Assembly: GCA_022510785.1 (NCBI GenBank)
Contig: JAFLSV010000005.1
Span: 1 to 64,000, forward strand
Origin: Desulfovibrionaceae bacterium
GTDB taxonomy: Bacteria; Desulfobacterota; Desulfovibrionia; Desulfovibrionales; Desulfovibrionaceae
Length of the DNA stretch: 64,000 bases
Direction: 5' to 3'
The position numbers were made by a program, and so were the translations under genes. Shown here in pieces: positions 26,901-37,325 of this stretch (its first letter is position 1; every line of letters starts with the position of its first letter). The notes beneath the pieces were generated by a model, which did not search any database, had not been told where the DNA came from, and saw only the letters and a list, made by a program, of their open reading frames with translations.

Positions 26901-28463
26901 ATGCCGCACACGCTTCACAACTCCCGCGAGCCGCGCGCTCTGCCCGCCGCCCTGCCCATGGTGGGGGCGGCCTTTATCCTGTTTCTGGTGGTGGTGGTCT
27001 TCACCGGGCGGAATATTCAGCAGACCGAGCGATCCGTGGCCCGCCTGCTGGCGGAACGCGGCAACGCCATCATTGAGATTTTTGAAAGCTCCTTGCGCAG
27101 CGATATGCGCACCCGCTCCGGGCTGCGCGTGCAGGAACTGCTGGAGGATCTCGCCTCGCGCGAGGATATTCTGTTTGTGGCCGTAACGCTGGGGGATGGT
27201 GAAATTATCGCCCACAGCGACTCCGGCCGGGTGGGGGGCCGCCTGCAGGCCGACGGCAGGCCCCTGGACGCGGAAATTCTGGCTCAGCTGCACGAGCGCG
27301 GGGAAGGCGAAGACGGCGGTTCCTGGGCTCTTATGCGCATGGAGGGTCACCGCGCCTTTGTGGTTCATCGGGCTCTGTTCCGGCCCAGGGGTGATACGCT
27401 GCAAAAAAATATGCCCCTCCGCCATTCGGAACCGGCCCGCCCCGAATTCGGTCACCGGATGTCCAGAATGACGCCGGAACGGATACAGGTGTTTGTGGGG
27501 CAGGATGCCCGCCTTCTGCAAACCATGCAGGAACAGAACATGCGATCCGCCCTGCTCTCCGGCATGCTGGTGCTTTTGACCGCCCTCACCGGCATAGCGG
27601 CCCTGCGCTATTTCGAGCGCGGCATGGAATCACGCCGCCGGATGCGCGAGGCGGAAAAGCTGGCCCAGAGCATGGTGGACGAGGTCAAGCGCCTGGAAAA
27701 GGAGATGCTCCGCCGGGAAAAACAGGCCGCCGTGGGCGATCTGGCTGCGGGTGTGGCCCATGAACTGCGCAATCCCTTAAGTTCCATCAAGGGCTATGCC
27801 ACCTATTTCGGCAGCCGCTTTCCCGAGGACAGCGAGGATCACCAGGCCGCCCGGATCATGGTGCAGGAGGTGGATCGCCTCAATCGGGTCATTACCGACC
27901 TCATCGGCGTCACGCGGCCCACGCACATTCACCCCGCCCCCACCGACATGGGGCGCCTGGTGGACGACATCCTGAGGCTGCTGAGCCAGGATGCCGGCCA
28001 GCGGGGCGTGGAGCTGCGGCGTGAGGGGCCTTCGGTCTTCGCCTGGATTGATCCCGACCGCCTGCGCCAGGCCGTCCTCAATGTCTGCCTGAACGCCGTG
28101 GAAGCCATGCCGGACGGCGGAACGGTGCGTTTGTGCCTGTCCTCCGATGAAAACCACGTTATGCTCGATGTGGTGGACAATGGTCCCGGCATTCCTTCCG
28201 AGCTGCTGAGCCGGGTTTTTGACCCCTATTTTACCACCAAGAGTCAGGGCACGGGACTGGGCCTGGTCATGGTCATGAACATCGTGGAGGCCCACGGCGG
28301 GTCGGTGCAGCTGAGTTCCGAGCCCGGTCAGGGAACCACGGTGCATTTCTCCCTGCCCCGCCGGCCACCGGAGCCGGTGCAGTCCCCATCCGCGCCCGAG
28401 GCTCCATCTCCGCCGGCCTTCACGGCCGCGGCGGATTCTGCCCGCAAGGACGGCTCATCATGA
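26901..28463 (+). CDS. Sensor histidine kinase (ZraS/NtrB-like)
   Basis: Membrane sensor of 520 residues. One helix (about 18-36) and a second (about 217-236) frame a periplasmic sensor region of about 180 residues that contains several His and Met residues. The cytoplasmic part has a coiled coil, a HisKA motif VAHELRNPLSSIKG with the phospho-His near 286, and a HATPase with NAVEAM, DNGPGIP and GTGLGL. A Pro/Ala-rich C-terminal tail follows. It overlaps the response regulator gene by four bases (ATGA). ZraS-like kinases sense zinc or envelope stress, but the signal here is unknown. Confidence 0.9.
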   Translation: MPHTLHNSREPRALPAALPMVGAAFILFLVVVVFTGRNIQQTERSVARLLAERGNAIIEIFESSLRSDMRTRSGLRVQELLEDLASREDILFVAVTLGDGEIIAHSDSGRVGGRLQADGRPLDAEILAQLHERGEGEDGGSWALMRMEGHRAFVVHRALFRPRGDTLQKNMPLRHSEPARPEFGHRMSRMTPERIQVFVGQDARLLQTMQEQNMRSALLSGMLVLLTALTGIAALRYFERGMESRRRMREAEKLAQSMVDEVKRLEKEMLRREKQAAVGDLAAGVAHELRNPLSSIKGYATYFGSRFPEDSEDHQAARIMVQEVDRLNRVITDLIGVTRPTHIHPAPTDMGRLVDDILRLLSQDAGQRGVELRREGPSVFAWIDPDRLRQAVLNVCLNAVEAMPDGGTVRLCLSSDENHVMLDVVDNGPGIPSELLSRVFDPYFTTKSQGTGLGLVMVMNIVEAHGGSVQLSSEPGQGTTVHFSLPRRPPEPVQSPSAPEAPSPPAFTAAADSARKDGSS

Positions 28464-29815
28464 AAATGCGCGCGCTTATTCTTATTGTGGATGACGACCA
28501 GCCCCACCGCTCCATGCTGCGCACCGTGCTGCGCGGCTGGGGCTATGCCGTGGAGGAGGCGGATGACGGCACCACAGCCGTGTCCCTGGTGCGTGAACAC
28601 GCCTTTGACGCCGTGCTGACCGACGTGCGCATGGCCCACATGGACGGTATGACGACCCTGAGGCAGATCCGCGCCTGGAACCCGGCCATTCCGGTGCTGA
28701 TCATGACGGCCTGGTCTTCGGTGGAAAGCGCGGTGGAGGCTCTGCGCCTGGGAGCTTACGACTATCTGACCAAGCCTCTGGATTTTGACGTGCTGCGCCT
28801 GTCTCTGGAGCGGGCCCTGGATCACACCCGTCTGGCCACGGAAAACCAGGAACTGCGCCGCCGCCTCACGCAGCAGGATTCGCCCATCATCGGGCACAGT
28901 CAGGCCATCCGCGAACTGGTGGAAATGGTGGAGACCGTGGCCCCCACCGAAGCCACGGTGCTCATCAGCGGCGAGTCGGGCACGGGCAAGGAGCTGGTGG
29001 CCCGCGCCATCCAGAGCGCCAGCCTGCGCAGGGACAAGCCCTTTGTCACCATCAACTGCGCGGCCCTGGCCGAAAATCTGCTGGAATCCGAATTGTTCGG
29101 GCATGAAAAAGGGGCGTTCACCGGAGCGGATCGCCGCCGTGAAGGGCGCTTTGTGCAGGCCGACAGGGGCACGCTTTTTCTGGATGAAATCGGGGAAATG
29201 CCCCTCAGCCTTCAGGCCAAGCTGCTCAGGGTGCTCCAGCAGGGCGAGGTGCAGCGGGTGGGCAGCGACGAGCCGCTGACCGTGGATGTGCGCGTTCTTG
29301 TGGCCACCAACCGGGTTTTAGCCGAGGAAGTGGCGGCCGGCCGTTTTCGGGAGGATCTGTTTTACCGGCTCAACGTCATCGGGCTGGAGGTGCCGCCCCT
29401 GCGGGCCCGGCAGGAAGATATTCCCCTGCTGGCGGCGGCGTTCCTGGAGCGCCACGCGGCGGCCAACCGGAAGGCACTTAAGGGATTCACCCCCCAGGCC
29501 ATGGATGCCCTGCTGCGCTATTCGTGGCCGGGCAACGTGCGCGAACTTGAGAACGCCGTGGAACGGGCGGTGATTCTGACCACCTCGGACTATGTGACCG
29601 AACGCGTCCTGCCCCTGACGGTGCAGAACGCGCCCCCTGCGCTTCAGCGCGGCCTGTCCTCGCTGGGCAGCATGTCGCTGGAGGATGTGGAAAAAAGGGC
29701 CATCGAGGCCACCTTGCGCGAAACCGACGCCAACAAAAGCGAAGCGGCAAGGCGTCTGGGCATAACGCGCGCGACGCTGCACAGCAAGTTGAAGAAATAC
29801 GGCCTGGAAGGCTGA
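28460..29815 (+). CDS. Sigma-54-dependent response regulator (ZraR/AtoC-like)
   Basis: NtrC-family regulator of 451 residues. Receiver domain with acidic pocket DDD at 11-13, phospho-acceptor Asp55 and the KPLDFD Lys; AAA+ domain with GESGTGKE near 175, GAFTGA near 218 and [11 protein letters not shown] near 240; Fis-type helix-turn-helix in the last 40 residues. Its ATGA overlap with the kinase gene defines a cognate pair. No sigma-54 target promoter was recognised next to it, so its regulon is probably elsewhere. Confidence 0.92.
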
Positions 29816-30037: not shown

Positions 30038-31633
30038 CTAGTCTTTCTTCGTGTAATACGCGGCCAGTCTGTCTCCATCCTGGCGGATAATCTTGAGCCA
30101 GCAGGCGGTCAGAAGCAGCGCGGGCAGGGCCATGAGGGCGCCCGAGAAGTTGCCGAATATCTTGGCGACTTCCAGCCCGCCTATGGCCAGCAGCCCGAGA
30201 GCCAGGCTTGCCTGGGCCACGGCCCAGAAGGTGCGGTGCTTGCGTTCGGGGTCGCAGCCGTAGGGCATGGTTCTGGTGGCCGTGGACGCCACGATATAGC
30301 AGCCGGAGTCCACGCTGGTGGCCAGGAAGATGGTGGAAAAGGCGCAGTACGCCAAAAGCAGAACTGTGCTGCCGGGCAGGGTGCTCAGCACCGAGACCAT
30401 GGCCGCGGGGCCGCCCTGTTCCTTGAGGATGCTTACGGCGTCGATGAGACCGGTATGCTGGGCCCACAGCGTGTATGAGCCGAACACGCCGTGAATGAGG
30501 AAGCCGCCGGCCACGGTGCCGAACATGCCCCAGCCTATGACTTCACGCACGGTGCGGCCGCGCGAGATGCGGGCGATGAACAGCCCCATGAAGGGGCCGT
30601 ATCCGGCCCAGAACAGGGCGTAGAAGATGGTCCAGTCCTGGGGGAAGCTGCTTCCGCCAAAGGGATCGGTCCAGAAGGTCATGTTGAAGTAGTTGCCCAG
30701 CATCTTGCCCAGGCTGTTGGTGAAGATGTTGAACAGGGTTGTCGAGGGGCCGCATACCGCGCCGTAGACAATCATGCTCAGGGCGATGACCACGTTGGCG
30801 TTGCTCAGCCATTTGATGCCCTTGTCGAGGCCCAGCCACACGCTGGTGCCCGCAATGGCCGCGCTGACCAGCAGAATGGTGATTTCCACCGAAAACGAGG
30901 GCGTAATGCCAAACACCTGAACCAGGGCGGCCTCCACCGTGGGCAGCGAGATGCACATGGTCACGGCCGTGCAGAACAGAAGGCCAAGGATAAAGAAAAC
31001 ATCCACCGTGCGGCCCAAAAGCCGATCCTTGTGCCTGCCGATGATCATTTCGGCGGCGGAGCTGATGCGCAGGAAGGGCTTGCGCTTGATATGGAAAATG
31101 TAGGCGATGGGCAGGGCGGTGATGAAATAGGTGCACCACGCGTTGGGGCCCCAGTGCAGCAGCAGGTAGGTCAGTGACCACTCATAGGCTTCCAGGCTCA
31201 GGGGCTCGGCATGCTGGGGCGGCGTGACCAGATCCCACAAAGGTTCCACAATGGACCAGAACATGACGGCCCCGGCCACGCCGGAACAGAAAATCATGGC
31301 CACCCATGACGTCAGGGAGAACTCGGGCTTTTCATCCGGTTCGCCAAATTTGATGTTGCCATAGCGGCTGAACGCGAAAAAGGCGCACAAAAGCACCAGA
31401 AAGACGGTAATCCACAGATACAGGGTGCCAAAGTTGGCGGCGAAGGGGCGGTAGATGGCCCCGATAATTTTTTCGGATGCCGCGGGGTAGAGGAGAGAAG
31501 GAATGCTGATAAGGAAGATCACCAGAATGGCGGGGACAAAAATTTTCCATTCGGGGCGCAGATCGATGTCCGACGGACATTCATCGCGCAGGTCAATGTC
31601 TTTGTCCGGCCGATAATCCGAATCCTGACTCAT
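30038..31633 (-). CDS. BCCT-family transporter
   Basis: Betaine/carnitine/choline-type secondary carrier of 531 residues with about 12 membrane helices and an acidic N-terminal cytoplasmic stretch. The family signature region reads DWTIFYALFWAGYGPF followed by ARISRGRTVREVI. The second half matches the family closely, but the aromatic WAWW stretch of glycine-betaine and choline carriers is replaced by ALFW, so substrate recognition probably differs. The start at 31633 is chosen over one at 31692-31702 because AGGAG lies nine bases upstream and the longer form would overlap the sigma-54 promoter. It is divergent from the phosphatase-superfamily gene and shares its control region. Confidence 0.9.
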   Translation of the reverse strand: MSQDSDYRPDKDIDLRDECPSDIDLRPEWKIFVPAILVIFLISIPSLLYPAASEKIIGAIYRPFAANFGTLYLWITVFLVLLCAFFAFSRYGNIKFGEPDEKPEFSLTSWVAMIFCSGVAGAVMFWSIVEPLWDLVTPPQHAEPLSLEAYEWSLTYLLLHWGPNAWCTYFITALPIAYIFHIKRKPFLRISSAAEMIIGRHKDRLLGRTVDVFFILGLLFCTAVTMCISLPTVEAALVQVFGITPSFSVEITILLVSAAIAGTSVWLGLDKGIKWLSNANVVIALSMIVYGAVCGPSTTLFNIFTNSLGKMLGNYFNMTFWTDPFGGSSFPQDWTIFYALFWAGYGPFMGLFIARISRGRTVREVIGWGMFGTVAGGFLIHGVFGSYTLWAQHTGLIDAVSILKEQGGPAAMVSVLSTLPGSTVLLLAYCAFSTIFLATSVDSGCYIVASTATRTMPYGCDPERKHRTFWAVAQASLALGLLAIGGLEVAKIFGNFSGALMALPALLLTACWLKIIRQDGDRLAAYYTKKD

Positions 31634-31676
31634 GATCCTAATCTCCTGTTGAGGTGGGTCGATGATTCCTAAAAAA

Positions 31677-31692
31677 TGCATATATTGTGCCA
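31677..31692 (-). promoter_or_regulatory. Sigma-54 promoter of the BCCT gene
   Basis: Read on the minus strand the site is TGGCACAATATATGCA. It matches TGGCAC at -24 and TGCA at -12 with the exact ten-base GG-to-GC spacing. Transcription would begin near 31665, leaving a leader of about 30 bases. Confidence 0.7.
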
Positions 31693-31764
31693 TGAATAAC
31701 AATAAATAATTTTAGGGGGTTTTTGTAAAAAGAACCAAAAGGAGCATATATAAGATGATAAATA

Positions 31765-31858
31765 TGTCGCCTTTAACGCCATATATGTCGTTTTAAAAAA
31801 TGGTATAAAAAAGACTAAGTTAACAAAAAAAATTCAGATAAATACGACAGAAATGTCG
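31765..31858. promoter_or_regulatory. Candidate activator sites between divergent sigma-54 promoters
   Basis: ATGTCG occurs at 31764-31769, 31785-31790 and 31853-31858; the last pairs with CGACA at 31845-31849 to form the inverted repeat CGACAGAAATGTCG. The first two copies are 21 bases (two helical turns) apart. The surrounding DNA (about 31693-31850) is strikingly AT-rich compared with the rest of the window. The sites lie roughly 75-170 bases from the BCCT promoter and 150-250 from the opposite one, as expected for enhancers. Confidence 0.45.
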
Positions 31859-32010
31859 CACACGGGAAAAAGCATGGGCCGACGGGCGGGCCAGGAGGAC
31901 ATGTAAATTAATAAGGATGAACCGCGTTTTTCGGACGGCTGACTCAGCAAAGGCGGCCCTCAGCGGGCGTCTCTGGCTGGGGATTGTCCGCATTCAGGGA
32001 GAACTGTCTC

Positions 32011-32026
32011 TGGCATATTTTTTGAA
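32011..32026 (+). promoter_or_regulatory. Sigma-54 promoter of the phosphatase-superfamily gene
   Basis: TGGCATATTTTTTGAA has TGGCA at -24 and TTGA at -12 with correct spacing; the -12 C is replaced by A, so it is a weaker match than the divergent one. A start near 32036 gives a leader of about 50 bases before ATG 32089. Confidence 0.5.
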
Positions 32027-32088
32027 TATGTGTGGGGCGGCATGGGCGTTTTGCCCGTTCACACCGCAATGCTACCAAGGAGTTTTGT

Positions 32089-33975
32089 ATGGCCGCCAAA
32101 GCGAAACGCGCCGCCCTTATCGGGTATGACTGCCTGATCCCCAAACGCCTCGAGGCCATGCTGGCCGAGGGCGGCCTGGAGAATTTCCGAACCTTTATGG
32201 CCGAAGGCAGTTTCATTCCTGAAGGCTACAACCTGCCCACCGTCACGCCGCCCTCGTGGGCCACCATCTGCACCGGGGCCTATCCCCGCACGCACGGCGT
32301 GGAGGATTACTATTACTATCTGGAGGGCAACAGCCTGGAGCACAAGAAGACCTGCCAGGCTTTCGGCTCGGATATCCTGACGGCCCAGACCATTTGGGAT
32401 GCATGGGACAAGGCGGGCAAAAAGTGTGTGGTGATTAATTACCCCATGTCCTGGCCGTCGCACATGACGAACGGCGTCATGATCATGGGCCAGGGCCTGA
32501 CCCCGGCGGAAACCCGCTGGCCTTTGAACGGCAATGAGCACAAGGAATTTCTGGCGTCTGAAAACGTCATTTCCACCGAGTTTTATCACATGGGTGCCCA
32601 GGGGCGCTTTGAAGACGCTGAGGGCTGGGCGAATTTGCCTGACTGCGATGAGCCCCTGGAAATGCAGGTGAAGATGCGCTTCAAGGAATCCATCGAGCCC
32701 ATTGAGGATCAGGTGTGGTATGGCCTTGCGTGGGAAAGCGGTGACGACGGCTTTGACACTTTCGCCCTGTGTCCGGAAAAGGATTACGCCAAGGCCTTTT
32801 TCACCATCAGGGCGGGGCAGTGGAGCGAGCCCGTGGAGCACGACTTTACCGTGAAGGCCGATGGCCGCACGGAAAAGGGCGTGTTCCGCTGCAAGCTGCT
32901 GACCCTGTCGGACGACGCCGAGGACTTCAAGCTGTATGTGTCCGGCATTTCCGGGCGCACCGGCTTTATCGCCCCGCCGGAAGCGGCGAAAAACATTGAT
33001 TTTTCGCGTCACATCACGGCCAACGACATCGGCCTGGTGGCCTATTTGCACGGCGTTATTGACACGGACACCGTGTGCGAGCTGACCCAGTTCCACAGCG
33101 ACTGGCTGTGGAATGTCATCGAGTCCACCCTGAAGGCCAACCCCGACTGGGATTTGTTCTACATGCATTCGCATCCCATCGACTGGTTCTATCACGGCTG
33201 GCTGAGCGAGGTGGACAGCGCGGATGACAAGGTGCGCGCCCGCGCCCGCGCCATGGAGCGCCGCATTTACGAAATCGAGGATCGGCTTCTGGGGCGTCTC
33301 ATGAAGCTCATGGGTGACGAAACCCTCATGTGCGTGTGCTCGGATCACGGCGCCACCCCCATGGGCCCCATCCTGAACACCGCCGCCGCCCTCAGGCAGG
33401 CGGGCCTGTGCTCCTACGAGCCCAAAAAGTCCGAAAACTACTGGGATATCTATGAGGAAAGCGAAGGGTTCGACTATGTGCTGGATGTGAGCAAATCCCA
33501 GGCCGTGCCCCAGCGCTACATGTTCGTGTATGTGAATCTCAAGGGCAAATACCCCGGCGGCATTGTGGAGCCCGAAGACTACGAAAAGGTGCGCAGCCAG
33601 ATTATCGACGCCCTTCTGGATTACAAACACCCCGACACCGGCGAGCGGCCCATCCTGCTGGCCGTGCGCAGGGAAGACGCCCATGTGTTCGGCATGGGGG
33701 GCGCACAGGCGGGTGACGTGGTCTACGCCCTCAAACCCGAATACATGGCCGAGCACGGCTACGGCTTCCCCACCGGTGAATCCGGCTGCGGCAGCCTGAA
33801 GAACCTGCTCATGTTCCGCGGCCCCAACATCAAAAAGGGCTGCCGCTACCCGCGGCCGCGCTGGCTGGCCGACATTGTGCCGACCCTGTGCTATATCACG
33901 GGCAACCCCGTCCCGGCCGACGCCGAGGGCGCGCCCATATATCAGATTATGGAAAACCCGAATCTGGTGGATTGA
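32089..33975 (+). CDS. Alkaline-phosphatase-superfamily hydrolase (type I phosphodiesterase/nucleotide pyrophosphatase-like)
   Basis: Soluble protein of 628 residues without signal peptide. It follows the phosphodiesterase/nucleotide pyrophosphatase pattern. IGYD (Asp14, metal ligand) is followed by PTVTPPSWATICTG with the likely nucleophile Thr53, then MHSHPIDWFYHG (about 361-372) and CSDHGATP (about 421-428) with further metal ligands. A central insertion (about 150-300) is unusual. Where relatives carry a last metal-binding His near G-x-H, this protein reads TGESGCGSLKNL, so one ligand may be missing or different. AAGGAG is six bases before ATG 32089. Context with a BCCT carrier suggests hydrolysis of an imported ester; the substrate is unknown. 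Confidence 0.75.
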   Translation: MAAKAKRAALIGYDCLIPKRLEAMLAEGGLENFRTFMAEGSFIPEGYNLPTVTPPSWATICTGAYPRTHGVEDYYYYLEGNSLEHKKTCQAFGSDILTAQTIWDAWDKAGKKCVVINYPMSWPSHMTNGVMIMGQGLTPAETRWPLNGNEHKEFLASENVISTEFYHMGAQGRFEDAEGWANLPDCDEPLEMQVKMRFKESIEPIEDQVWYGLAWESGDDGFDTFALCPEKDYAKAFFTIRAGQWSEPVEHDFTVKADGRTEKGVFRCKLLTLSDDAEDFKLYVSGISGRTGFIAPPEAAKNIDFSRHITANDIGLVAYLHGVIDTDTVCELTQFHSDWLWNVIESTLKANPDWDLFYMHSHPIDWFYHGWLSEVDSADDKVRARARAMERRIYEIEDRLLGRLMKLMGDETLMCVCSDHGATPMGPILNTAAALRQAGLCSYEPKKSENYWDIYEESEGFDYVLDVSKSQAVPQRYMFVYVNLKGKYPGGIVEPEDYEKVRSQIIDALLDYKHPDTGERPILLAVRREDAHVFGMGGAQAGDVVYALKPEYMAEHGYGFPTGESGCGSLKNLLMFRGPNIKKGCRYPRPRWLADIVPTLCYITGNPVPADAEGAPIYQIMENPNLVD

Positions 33976-34071: not shown

Positions 34072-34632
34072 ATGGCCGAAAAAAAAGTGCTGCTCGTGCT
34101 GGCTGAGGATATGGATTGGAACGGCTCCGGCGAGGCTTTGGAGCAATTGAAGAAAAAGGCCGCCCTGCTGCCCCGTGCCGAAAGCGCGGGCCTGGCTGAT
34201 CTGGCCCGGAAAATGGGCGGCGTGGAGGTGCCCGCCGACGCCGAAGCCATGAAGGCCGCCATGTCCGGCGAAAACGGCCTGGCCGTGGCCCACGGCGCGG
34301 CCGCTCTGGCTCCGGCCCTGGAAGCGGCGGATCGCCGCACCCTGCTCCTGGTCGCCGCCGGGAACGGCGCGGCCCTTTACGGCATGGCCATCAACGCCAA
34401 GGCGGGCAGCGTCGACCGGGCCGTGAACGCCCAGGATCTGGCCGTCACCATGGCCGCCATAGGCGACTTGCCCCTGGATGAAACCTATACCGGCGGGATC
34501 ATTTACCAGGTGCTCAAAAATCCCAACTTCAAGCGGGACGAAATCAAAAAGCTTCAGGAAGCCATCCTGCGCATGGAATCCGTGCTGGAACGCAACAGCC
34601 GCGAGCCGTGGGAGAAGCACGACTGCGCCTGA
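34072..34632 (+). CDS. Small protein resembling only the C-terminal part of alkaline-phosphatase-superfamily enzymes
   Basis: 186 residues, preceded by GGAAG. Its middle and end (about 95-160: TLLLVAAGNGAALYGMA, then NAQDLAVTMAAIGDLP and TGGIIYQVLKNPN) follow the same pattern as the tail of the upstream hydrolase (LADIVPTLCYITGNP, GAPIYQIMENPN). No nucleophile or metal ligands are present. The N-terminal 90 residues, starting with KKVLLVLAEDMDWNG, are Ala/Leu/Lys-rich and unrecognised. It is probably co-transcribed with the hydrolase and could be a regulatory or structural partner, or a remnant of a duplicated gene; the intact frame and good ribosome site favour the former. Confidence 0.6.
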   Translation: MAEKKVLLVLAEDMDWNGSGEALEQLKKKAALLPRAESAGLADLARKMGGVEVPADAEAMKAAMSGENGLAVAHGAAALAPALEAADRRTLLLVAAGNGAALYGMAINAKAGSVDRAVNAQDLAVTMAAIGDLPLDETYTGGIIYQVLKNPNFKRDEIKKLQEAILRMESVLERNSREPWEKHDCA

Positions 34633-34689: not shown

Positions 34690-36078
34690 CTACTTCAGCC
34701 CCAGTCGTTTCATCTTGCGCTGCAGGGTGCGCAGATTGAGGCCCAGTACGGCGGCGGCCTGTCCCCGCCGCCCGCGGCACTGATCCAGCGCCTGGCGAAT
34801 CAGGGTTTCTTCCAGGCGCAGGGTGGCGTCTTCCAGATTCAGCCCCGCCCGGGGCAGGGTCAGCGCGCTGAGGCTGCCCGCCTCACCCAGCGATTCCAGG
34901 GCGGCCTCGCCGAACGCCGCGTAGCGATCGAGAAAGTTGTGCAGCTCGCGCACATTGCCGGGCCAGGTATAGCGTTCCATAGCCTCGCGGACATGCAGGG
35001 GCAGCATGGCGCTCATGCCCCGGCGTTCCAGCCAGGCTTCGGTCAAAAGCGCGATGTCGCCCTGCCGTTCGCGCAGGGGCGGCACAGTCAGGGAGAGCAC
35101 ATGCACCCGATAATAAAAATCCGACCGCATTTTGCCCTCCCGCACCAGCGCCCCCAGATCCCGGTTGGTGGCGGCGATAAGGCGGAAAGACGCGGTTTTG
35201 GGGCTGTGATCTCCCACCGGGGTGTACATCCTGTTTTCCAGCGCCCGCAGCAGCTTGACCTGAAGATGCAGGGGCAGCTCGCCTATTTCATCCAGAAACA
35301 GGGTGCCGTCGCGGGCCGCCTCGATATACCCCGTTTTGGCGGTGTAGGCCCCGGAAAAGGCTCCCCTGGCATGGCCGAAAAATTCGCTCTCCATCAGTTG
35401 CTCGGGAATGGCCCCGCAGTTGACCGGCACATAGGGGCCCCGCCTGCCGCTGAAGGCGTGGATGGCCTGGGCCGCAAGGTCTTTGCCCGTGCCGGTTTCG
35501 CCATAAATGATGACGTTGGCGTCGGTTTCGGCCGCCCGGAGTATCTGCGTGTACATCCGGCGCATGGCCGGGCTGCTCCCCACCATGGGGCCCAGGCCGT
35601 CCGCATGTTCCATGGTGGCCTTGAGGCGCCGGTTTTCCTCCTGCAGCTCCAGCTCCACAAATTTCTGATCGCTGATGTCCAGCATGAGCCCCTGCAGGCA
35701 ATAGGGCTCAGCCTCACCCGGCCGGTAAATGCCCTCGCCCTGATCCCATATCCACTTGACCCTGCCCGAAGGCAGAATCTGGCGGTAATACAGCTGGTAG
35801 GGACGGCGCTCGGCAAAACTGGCTTCCATGACCCGGCGCACTTCGGCGAGATCCTCGGGGGGCGTCATGCGTTCAATCGTGTTCCAGCTGTTGCGCAGCA
35901 TGTCTTCGGGCGTCAGCCCCAGCAGATCGTAACAGCCGCTGCTGGCGAATTCGAGCACATAGCTGTGCCCCGCCCCCGGCGATTCCGGCGGCAGGATGCG
36001 GCACTGATAGACCAGGCCGGGTATGTGGTTGAGCAGCCTGAAGTAGCTTTCGCGCACGTCGGAAACGGTGCTGTGCAT
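34690..36078 (-). CDS. PAS-domain sigma-54-dependent activator
   Basis: 462 residues. An N-terminal PAS domain (about 8-145, with FASSGCYDLLGLTPEDML) is followed by an AAA+ motor with Walker A GETGTGKD near 193, Walker [12 protein letters not shown] near 265, and a Fis-type helix-turn-helix at the end. The sigma-54-contact loop reads GAFSGA (near 237) instead of GAFTGA. There is no receiver domain, so the PAS domain probably binds the inducer. The start at 36078 has GAGG upstream; an in-frame codon at 36114 is less likely. It is convergent with the hydrolase pair and is the obvious regulator of the two sigma-54 promoters at 31677-32026, though this is inferred from position. Confidence 0.87.
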   Translation of the reverse strand: MHSTVSDVRESYFRLLNHIPGLVYQCRILPPESPGAGHSYVLEFASSGCYDLLGLTPEDMLRNSWNTIERMTPPEDLAEVRRVMEASFAERRPYQLYYRQILPSGRVKWIWDQGEGIYRPGEAEPYCLQGLMLDISDQKFVELELQEENRRLKATMEHADGLGPMVGSSPAMRRMYTQILRAAETDANVIIYGETGTGKDLAAQAIHAFSGRRGPYVPVNCGAIPEQLMESEFFGHARGAFSGAYTAKTGYIEAARDGTLFLDEIGELPLHLQVKLLRALENRMYTPVGDHSPKTASFRLIAATNRDLGALVREGKMRSDFYYRVHVLSLTVPPLRERQGDIALLTEAWLERRGMSAMLPLHVREAMERYTWPGNVRELHNFLDRYAAFGEAALESLGEAGSLSALTLPRAGLNLEDATLRLEETLIRQALDQCRGRRGQAAAVLGLNLRTLQRKMKRLGLK

Positions 36079-36266
36079 GGCGCGCCTCGTCAAAAATGGT
36101 CGTGGGGACGGCATGGGGCTGCGCGGAGGAAGACGGGAATGTTCCGCAGTCCTGTTGTTTCACAGTTCGGCTTTCCATGCAAACATGCGGCCGGCCGTGC
36201 CGGAGCGGCCCGCCGGAAAAAATCCCGCGTCCCGGCGTGGTTCGGGGCGGTACCCGGGAGGGGAGC

Positions 36267-37325
36267 ATGACGCAATCCACAAACGCCGCGGACGCCATGG
36301 CGGCTCAGCTGGCCCGGGCGCGGGAAAAAAAGGAGCTGGGCTACGCCAAAAAAGGTCTGGTGCTGGCCCTTGTGTCCGGAATAATCTGGAGTTTTGACGG
36401 GCTGGCCCTGGGGCAGGGGCTGGGCTGCGCGCCGTTCACGCTGCCCGCGGTCTGGCTGCTGGCGCCCCTGCTGGCGGCGGGTGTCCACGACCTGTGCGCC
36501 GCGCTGTTCTGTTTTGGCTGGAACGCCGGACAGGGCCGCGCCCGTGAAGTCTTTCGCACCCTGGTCAGCCGGCCGGGCCGCCTGTGCGTGCTGGGGGCCC
36601 TGTTCGGCGCGCCGCTCGGCATGGGCGGCTATCTCATGGCCGTGTCCCTGGCCGGGCCGGCCTATACCCTGCCCATCACCTCGCTGTACCCCGCCATCGC
36701 CGCCGTGCTGGCCGCCGTGTTCCTTCGGGAGCGCATCAGCCGCCGGGCCTGGGTGGGGCTTGCCCTGTGCGTGGCCGGGGCTGTCGTTATCGGGTACACG
36801 CCGCCTGAAACGGACGCGGGCAGCTTTTCTTTTTATCTGGGCATAGCCTTTGCCGTGCTGGCCGCCTTCGGCTGGGCGGCGGAAGGGGTATGCGTGACCT
36901 CGGGCATGGATTTGGCGGAACCCGCCGTGGCGCTGTGCATCAGGGAGTTCACATCCGCGCTCCTCTATGGCCTGTTCATCGTGCCCGGCGTTATGCTGTA
37001 TCTGTCCCTGGGACAGTCCGCCTTTTCCTCCGCCCGCTTTCTGGCCGAGGCCCTGACCAGCGCGGGGCTTCTTTTCGTCATGCTGGCCGGGGTTATCGGC
37101 TGCACATCCTACCTGTGCTGGTACCCGGCCATGAACATGACCGGGGTGAGCCGGGCCATGTCTCTGAACATCACCTATTCCCTGTGGGGGGTGCTGTTCA
37201 GCGCCCTGTTCACGGATATTGACATCACCCGCAATCTGGTTATCGGATCCCTGATTATTTTCGCGGGCATGTTTCTGGTCATCGGCAATCCCAGGGATAT
37301 CATCAACCTGCGCAACGTGGACTAA
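36267..37325 (+). CDS. EamA/DMT-superfamily transporter
   Basis: 352 residues with about ten membrane helices arranged as two EamA repeats (about 22-170 and 190-340); the first repeat has ITSLYPAIAAVLAAVFLRERIS, typical of drug/metabolite exporters. ATG 36267 follows GGGAGGGGAG, and starts further upstream would add a non-homologous, charged leader. It is divergent from the PAS activator, which suggests joint control with the BCCT cluster, perhaps as an exporter of a product. No sigma-54 site was found in 36079-36266. Confidence 0.82.
   Translation: MTQSTNAADAMAAQLARAREKKELGYAKKGLVLALVSGIIWSFDGLALGQGLGCAPFTLPAVWLLAPLLAAGVHDLCAALFCFGWNAGQGRAREVFRTLVSRPGRLCVLGALFGAPLGMGGYLMAVSLAGPAYTLPITSLYPAIAAVLAAVFLRERISRRAWVGLALCVAGAVVIGYTPPETDAGSFSFYLGIAFAVLAAFGWAAEGVCVTSGMDLAEPAVALCIREFTSALLYGLFIVPGVMLYLSLGQSAFSSARFLAEALTSAGLLFVMLAGVIGCTSYLCWYPAMNMTGVSRAMSLNITYSLWGVLFSALFTDIDITRNLVIGSLIIFAGMFLVIGNPRDIINLRNVD

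Follow-up and report, generated by a model that had tools for sequence, protein, structure and literature searches.

A probable common enhancer for two opposed sigma-54 promoters beside a PAS-type activator gene in a Desulfovibrionaceae bacterium

Among the closest described systems are the LurR and NrfR circuits of Desulfovibrio vulgaris, in which several 16-bp activator sites lie upstream of a sigma-54 promoter (PMC6456213). The one-component regulons of the same species, as set out in the main text of Kazakov 2015 (PMC4641369), comprise one to four operons, and most of their sites lie no more than 100 nt from the promoter. A divergent module in the 2.2-Mb genome of a Desulfovibrionaceae bacterium (G000, contig 45; loci assigned to its genus bear the name Mailhella) is very probably a sigma-54 switch of a familiar type and is apparently undescribed. 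It shares with LurR/NrfR the multiple activator sites, the proximity of the regulator gene to its target, and conservation across the Desulfovibrionales (PMC6456213). However, LurR and NrfR are two-component response regulators (PMC6456213), their sites read like GTCTGCAATGTCGGAC rather than RCGACA-N4-TGTCGY, and they act on one lactate operon instead of two divergent targets; membership of the LurR/NrfR regulon was rejected, there being neither a receiver domain nor GTCT...GGAC-type sites.

The locus also resembles the Kazakov 2015 regulons of the main text (PMC4641369), being local and having an activator gene co-localised with a sigma-54 promoter, but the motif groups reported there, with TGT/ACA half-sites 9, 11 or 12 bp apart, differ from the motif described here, and that main text includes no BCCT or phosphodiesterase (PDE) target and no such motif. 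NtrC and NorR-type regulators have in common with the present activator an AAA+ core, a GAFTGA-type loop, a Fis-type HTH, and dyad enhancers upstream of -24/-12 elements, whereas their input domain is a receiver or GAF, and here it is PAS_3. The activator scored far below the cut-offs of all full-length NCBIfam equivalogs with which it was compared, and a literature search, confined to main texts outside subscription journals, returned no description of this circuit.

Promoters and dyads of the divergent gap

The 455-bp gap at positions 31634–32088 of the window (the whole 64-kb stretch of DNA analysed) parts a BCCT-family transporter gene on the minus strand (30038–31633; Pfam BCCT, 414 bits) from a plus-strand PDE gene of the alkaline phosphatase superfamily (32089–33975; Pfam Phosphodiest, 92 bits). 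Co-directional with the latter, and conserved beside it, is a gene for a 186-aa protein of unassigned function (34072–34632, plus strand), for which neither Pfam nor NCBIfam gave a match. The proposed regulator, a sigma-54 activator with PAS, AAA+ and Fis-type HTH domains, is encoded on the minus strand at 34690–36114 (Pfam PAS_3, Sigma54_activat and HTH_8), and an EamA-type transporter gene conserved in the module follows at 36267–37325 on the plus strand (Pfam EamA). On the other flank, a ZraSR-like sensor kinase and sigma-54 response regulator (26901–29815) adjoin the transporter gene in this genome and are absent from related loci. No sigma-70-type promoter and no Rfam match were found in the gap, and the latter result led to the rejection of a structured RNA.

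Two -24/-12 elements face outwards from the gap, and the genome encodes RpoN. The minus-strand site, TGGCACAATATATGCA (31677–31692), has a predicted start near 31666, with the transporter gene as its putative target; the plus-strand site, TGGCATATTTTTTGAA (32011–32026), has a predicted start near 32037, is expected to serve the PDE gene, and carries a non-canonical -12 element (GA for GC). Against a weight matrix self-written from the published consensus, and hence approximate, the minus site scored 16.2 of 19.3 bits, the highest value on either strand of the 64-kb window, and the plus site 12.7 bits, ranking sixth. Compared with TGGCAC-N5-TTGCW, the minus promoter shows a single departure, ATGC for TTGC, and qualifies by sequence as a sigma-54 promoter; in the plus promoter, the C of the -12 GC is replaced by A. 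When the 455 bp were shuffled 2000 times with dinucleotides preserved, scores at least as high came up with probabilities of 0.0025 (minus) and 0.012 (plus). A preliminary description of the locus had placed both sites at exactly these coordinates, an observation that is confirmed here.

Between the promoters, ATGTCG occurs three times, starting at 31764, 31785 and 31853; the shuffle probability of three copies on either strand is 0.0005, and an exact dyad arose in none of the 2000 shuffles. The preliminary description had recorded these copies correctly and had recognised one of them as part of CGACA-N4-TGTCG, but all three prove to be dyads of one kind, the first two having degenerate left halves. 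Dyad 1 (31756–31769) reads TGATA-N4-TGTCG, matching at 8/10 positions, and its position is conserved in alignment; dyad 2 (31777–31790), 21 bp from dyad 1, reads CGCCA-N4-TGTCG (9/10); and dyad 3 (31845–31858) is the exact CGACA-N4-TGTCG with spacer gaaa (10/10), present as a single copy in the whole 2.2-Mb genome. Dyads with no more than one mismatch number 46 in this genome, against 110 for a reversed-pattern control, so there is no evidence for distant targets here, and a wider regulon in this genome was rejected. Dyads were also looked for upstream of the EamA-type gene and of the activator gene, and none was found at either position in this genome.

Very probably, 31634–32088 serves as one enhancer for a sigma-54 promoter on either side, under the neighbouring PAS-type activator. 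The activator would bind the RCGACA-N4-TGTCGY dyads, three of which lie in this gap with one pair spaced by 21 bp, assemble through its AAA+ domain, and engage sigma-54 RNA polymerase on both sides, at the transporter and PDE promoters, with dimer binding, DNA looping and ATP-driven promoter opening presumed to follow the pattern of known bacterial enhancer-binding proteins. Genes for uptake and hydrolysis would thus be switched on together by a PAS-sensed signal, which, more speculatively, may be choline, a related quaternary amine or a phospho-ester.

Conservation of the gap and its promoters

The predicted sites, their conservation and their link to the activator are established by sequence and comparison. 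Both promoters and the dyads recur in 24/24 divergent BCCT/PDE gaps, a set that includes this locus and whose members are related, so that the counts are not independent. Desulfovibrio sp. OH1186_COT-070 (L058) is one of the relatives with the module. Minus-strand sigma-54 sites in these gaps score 12.7–18.5 bits and plus-strand sites 9.4–15.2 bits, while dyads matching at 9/10 positions or better total 50, against 0.26 expected from dinucleotide shuffles. A motif-blind scan for exact 5-N(0-12)-5 palindromes ranked CGACA-N4-TGTCG first, in 18/24 loci against a shuffle maximum of 3, and second came TGTCG-N7-CGACA, which is the 21-bp tandem. The consensus across loci is RCGACA-N4-TGTCGY with an AT-rich centre, and when eleven gaps are aligned, promoters and dyads stand out as conserved islands amid diverged sequence. 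Conservation of the half-sites in orthologous regions had been set beforehand as a test capable of refuting the preliminary description, which thus survived it; its proposal that one activator could switch both directions is likewise favoured by the presence of both promoters and dyads in every gap and by the co-occurrence of the activator gene.

Other features of the gap fared differently. The AT-rich block of the preliminary description is real in this locus, where the GC content of the gap core is 0.43 against 0.65 for the whole window, but it is not conserved: three loci (L060, L061 and L087) keep promoters and dyads in gaps of 63–67% GC, and AT-richness was rejected as a design feature. 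The accompanying suggestion of bendable enhancer DNA found no support, IHF-like sites with at most one mismatch occurring in 8 loci against 11.4 expected in shuffles, without enrichment, and the best IHF match in this locus having two mismatches; an IHF-assisted sigma-54 architecture was rejected for want of a conserved IHF site. The distances from dyads to promoters show only a weak periodicity (R ~0.5 at 11 bp, in related lineages), so the claim is limited to the 21-bp spacing between dyads, and strict helical phasing to the promoters was rejected.

The two promoters differ consistently in their -12 elements. At the BCCT promoter, the -12 C is present in 23/24 loci, and the GG and the -12 G in 24/24. 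At the PDE promoter, every one of the 24 loci has TGGCA, TT and the -12 G with the right spacing and places the site 66–103 bp ahead of the start codon, yet position 15, the C of the -12 GC, is A in 16 loci, G in seven, T in one and C in none, such that the element reads TTGA, TTGG or TTGT and never TTGC. The -12 consensus of Desulfovibrio is given as tTGCt in PMC4641369. Three further PDE promoters in non-divergent arrangements similarly have no -12 C. As the invariant bases and a placement within this range have been kept in all 24 loci, the plus site appears to be under selection and not in decay, and the -12 difference may represent a fixed contrast between the arms, in strength or in silencing. 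Separately, two loci (L035 and L036) contain a distant PDE paralogue (~37% identical) with a strong canonical TTGC sigma-54 promoter and no dyads, which suggests a sister circuit with another activator.

The PAS-type activator and alternative explanations

The protein encoded at 34690–36114 matches Pfam Sigma54_activat with 208 bits and HTH_8 with 39 bits, as an enhancer-binding protein should. Aligned homologues have a complete AAA+ core with a GAFSGA or GAFTGA loop (GAFSGA here) and a conserved, LRTLQRKMK-like recognition helix. Activator genes were found in 46 of 197 sampled family genomes, about a quarter, and among the 197, activator and PDE occur together in 44, PDE alone in 1, activator alone in 2 and neither in 150 (uncorrected for phylogeny), meaning that 44 of the 47 genomes with either gene have both. 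In most relatives the activator's own gene also has these dyads in front of it, and a divergent sigma-54 site often accompanies them. The preliminary description had named this protein, from 34690 onward, for binding assays, and it is the one that co-occurs with the promoters and dyads.

Exceptional arrangements served as controls and agreed with prediction. One genome (G193) keeps BCCT and PDE but has lost the activator along with good dyads and strong promoters; in another (G165), whose assembly has the activator and no PDE, exact dyads are present. Where PDE lies inside the BCCT operon (L075–L077, L090), nothing precedes the PDE gene, and in L075–L077 the dyads and promoter have shifted to the front of the BCCT gene; nothing precedes the PDE gene either in L069 and L072–L081, in which no activator gene was seen. 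Repeated upstream dyads conserved with an activator gene have the character of a candidate enhancer, and it is likely, as judged from comparative genomics, that the PAS-type activator regulates them.

Several side observations concern the activator's surroundings. A strong sigma-54 site between the activator and OsmC-like genes faces the activator gene in L057 (~8608), L059 (~9626) and L092 (~11843), and a similar site points away from it in L060 and others. In two Mailhella genomes, a protein of ~830 aa without a Pfam match is encoded between the 186-aa and activator genes (L039:7486–9966; L084:11373–13883).

Several points count against the shared enhancer: the plus promoter has no -12 C, two of the three dyads here have degraded left halves, the loci compared are related, and the activator gene has no dyad in this genome. 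The first could mean that only the transporter promoter is sigma-54 dependent and that the plus site is vestigial, the PDE gene being driven otherwise, a reading consistent with the C missing in all 24 loci and with the score of 12.7 here. This is unlikely given the invariant bases of the element and its placement 66–103 bp ahead of the gene, its retention in the three non-divergent loci, and the failure to find a sigma-70-type site. It is quite improbable that a different sigma-54 activator binds the dyads while the PAS protein regulates elsewhere, although the genome has 13 activator-domain matches and the ZraR-like response regulator (28460–29815) is the nearest on the transporter side. The ZraSR pair is missing from related loci that keep the dyads, and ZraR was rejected as the regulator on that ground; the PAS-type activator, by contrast, co-occurs with the module almost perfectly, is encoded behind matching dyads in relatives, and was lost together with dyads and promoters in G193.

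Dyad symmetry cannot separate an activator from a repressor, and the dyads might be operators of a repressor or of a factor unconnected with sigma-54, their nearness to sigma-54 promoters being incidental. That is very unlikely: in nearly all loci the transporter promoter has the dyads 60–170 bp upstream of it, a spacing like that of enhancers, and the presence of the dyads goes with that of a sigma-54 activator gene. Finally, the shuffle probability of the single plus site, ~0.01, would leave some room for chance motif matches in AT-rich intergenic DNA, but such an explanation is negligible, being excluded by the comparison across 24 loci, all of which, GC-rich ones included, conserve the elements.

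Putative function and the link to choline

Members of the BCCT family transport quaternary amines and related compounds. The nearest solved structures of the transporter encoded here are DddT, CaiT and the choline transporter BetT. In the PDE, metal-ligand-type residues are invariant in 19 sequences, and the modelled fold matches PafA, ENPP5, PhnA (phosphonoacetate hydrolase), ENPP7 and ENPP6 at the superfamily level. The model of the 186-aa protein (pLDDT 93) likewise gives superfamily-level matches, and since it shows a weak likeness to one lobe of sulfatase or YejM-type enzymes, the protein may be a degenerate partner of the PDE; its sequence ends in an invariant REPWxKHDCA-type tail.

In some relatives, dyads and sigma-54 sites also stand before an operon with genes for an OsmC-like protein, lipoamide dehydrogenase and a GcvH-like lipoyl carrier protein (L060:12765–17526; also L165, L169 and L160), the end of which, in L060 and others, is choline TMA-lyase CutC (1561 bits; cut-off 1050). 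In L046 the CutC gene follows the BCCT gene, and across the 197 genomes CutC and PDE are both present in 32, PDE alone in 13, CutC alone in 15 and neither in 137. In G095 and G112 the cut microcompartment cluster has exact dyads and a sigma-54 site in front of it, but cut clusters were rejected as general targets, only 2/29 having an exact dyad in genomes with the activator. The present genome has no CutC above the cut-off and thus falls outside a cut regulon, shared control being seen in some relatives only. As relatives link the module to CutC and this genome has none, a choline-type signal is no more than plausible.

It may tentatively be proposed, with more doubt than confidence, that gut Desulfovibrionaceae have a dedicated and as yet undescribed sigma-54 circuit for compounds of the choline type, to which the module belongs. 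In it, one PAS activator, acting from a single enhancer, would control a transporter and a PDE, joined in some species by a choline TMA-lyase operon, and the fixed non-canonical -12 would make the difference between the two outputs. An uncharacterised activator of the family can now be assigned a likely motif, targets and partner genes, and the fixed non-canonical -12 beside a canonical promoter, under the same putative enhancer, offers a natural experiment on the role of the -12 C. For the Desulfovibrio relatives, some of which make trimethylamine from choline-like compounds, the circuit would represent a candidate control of the uptake of such compounds.
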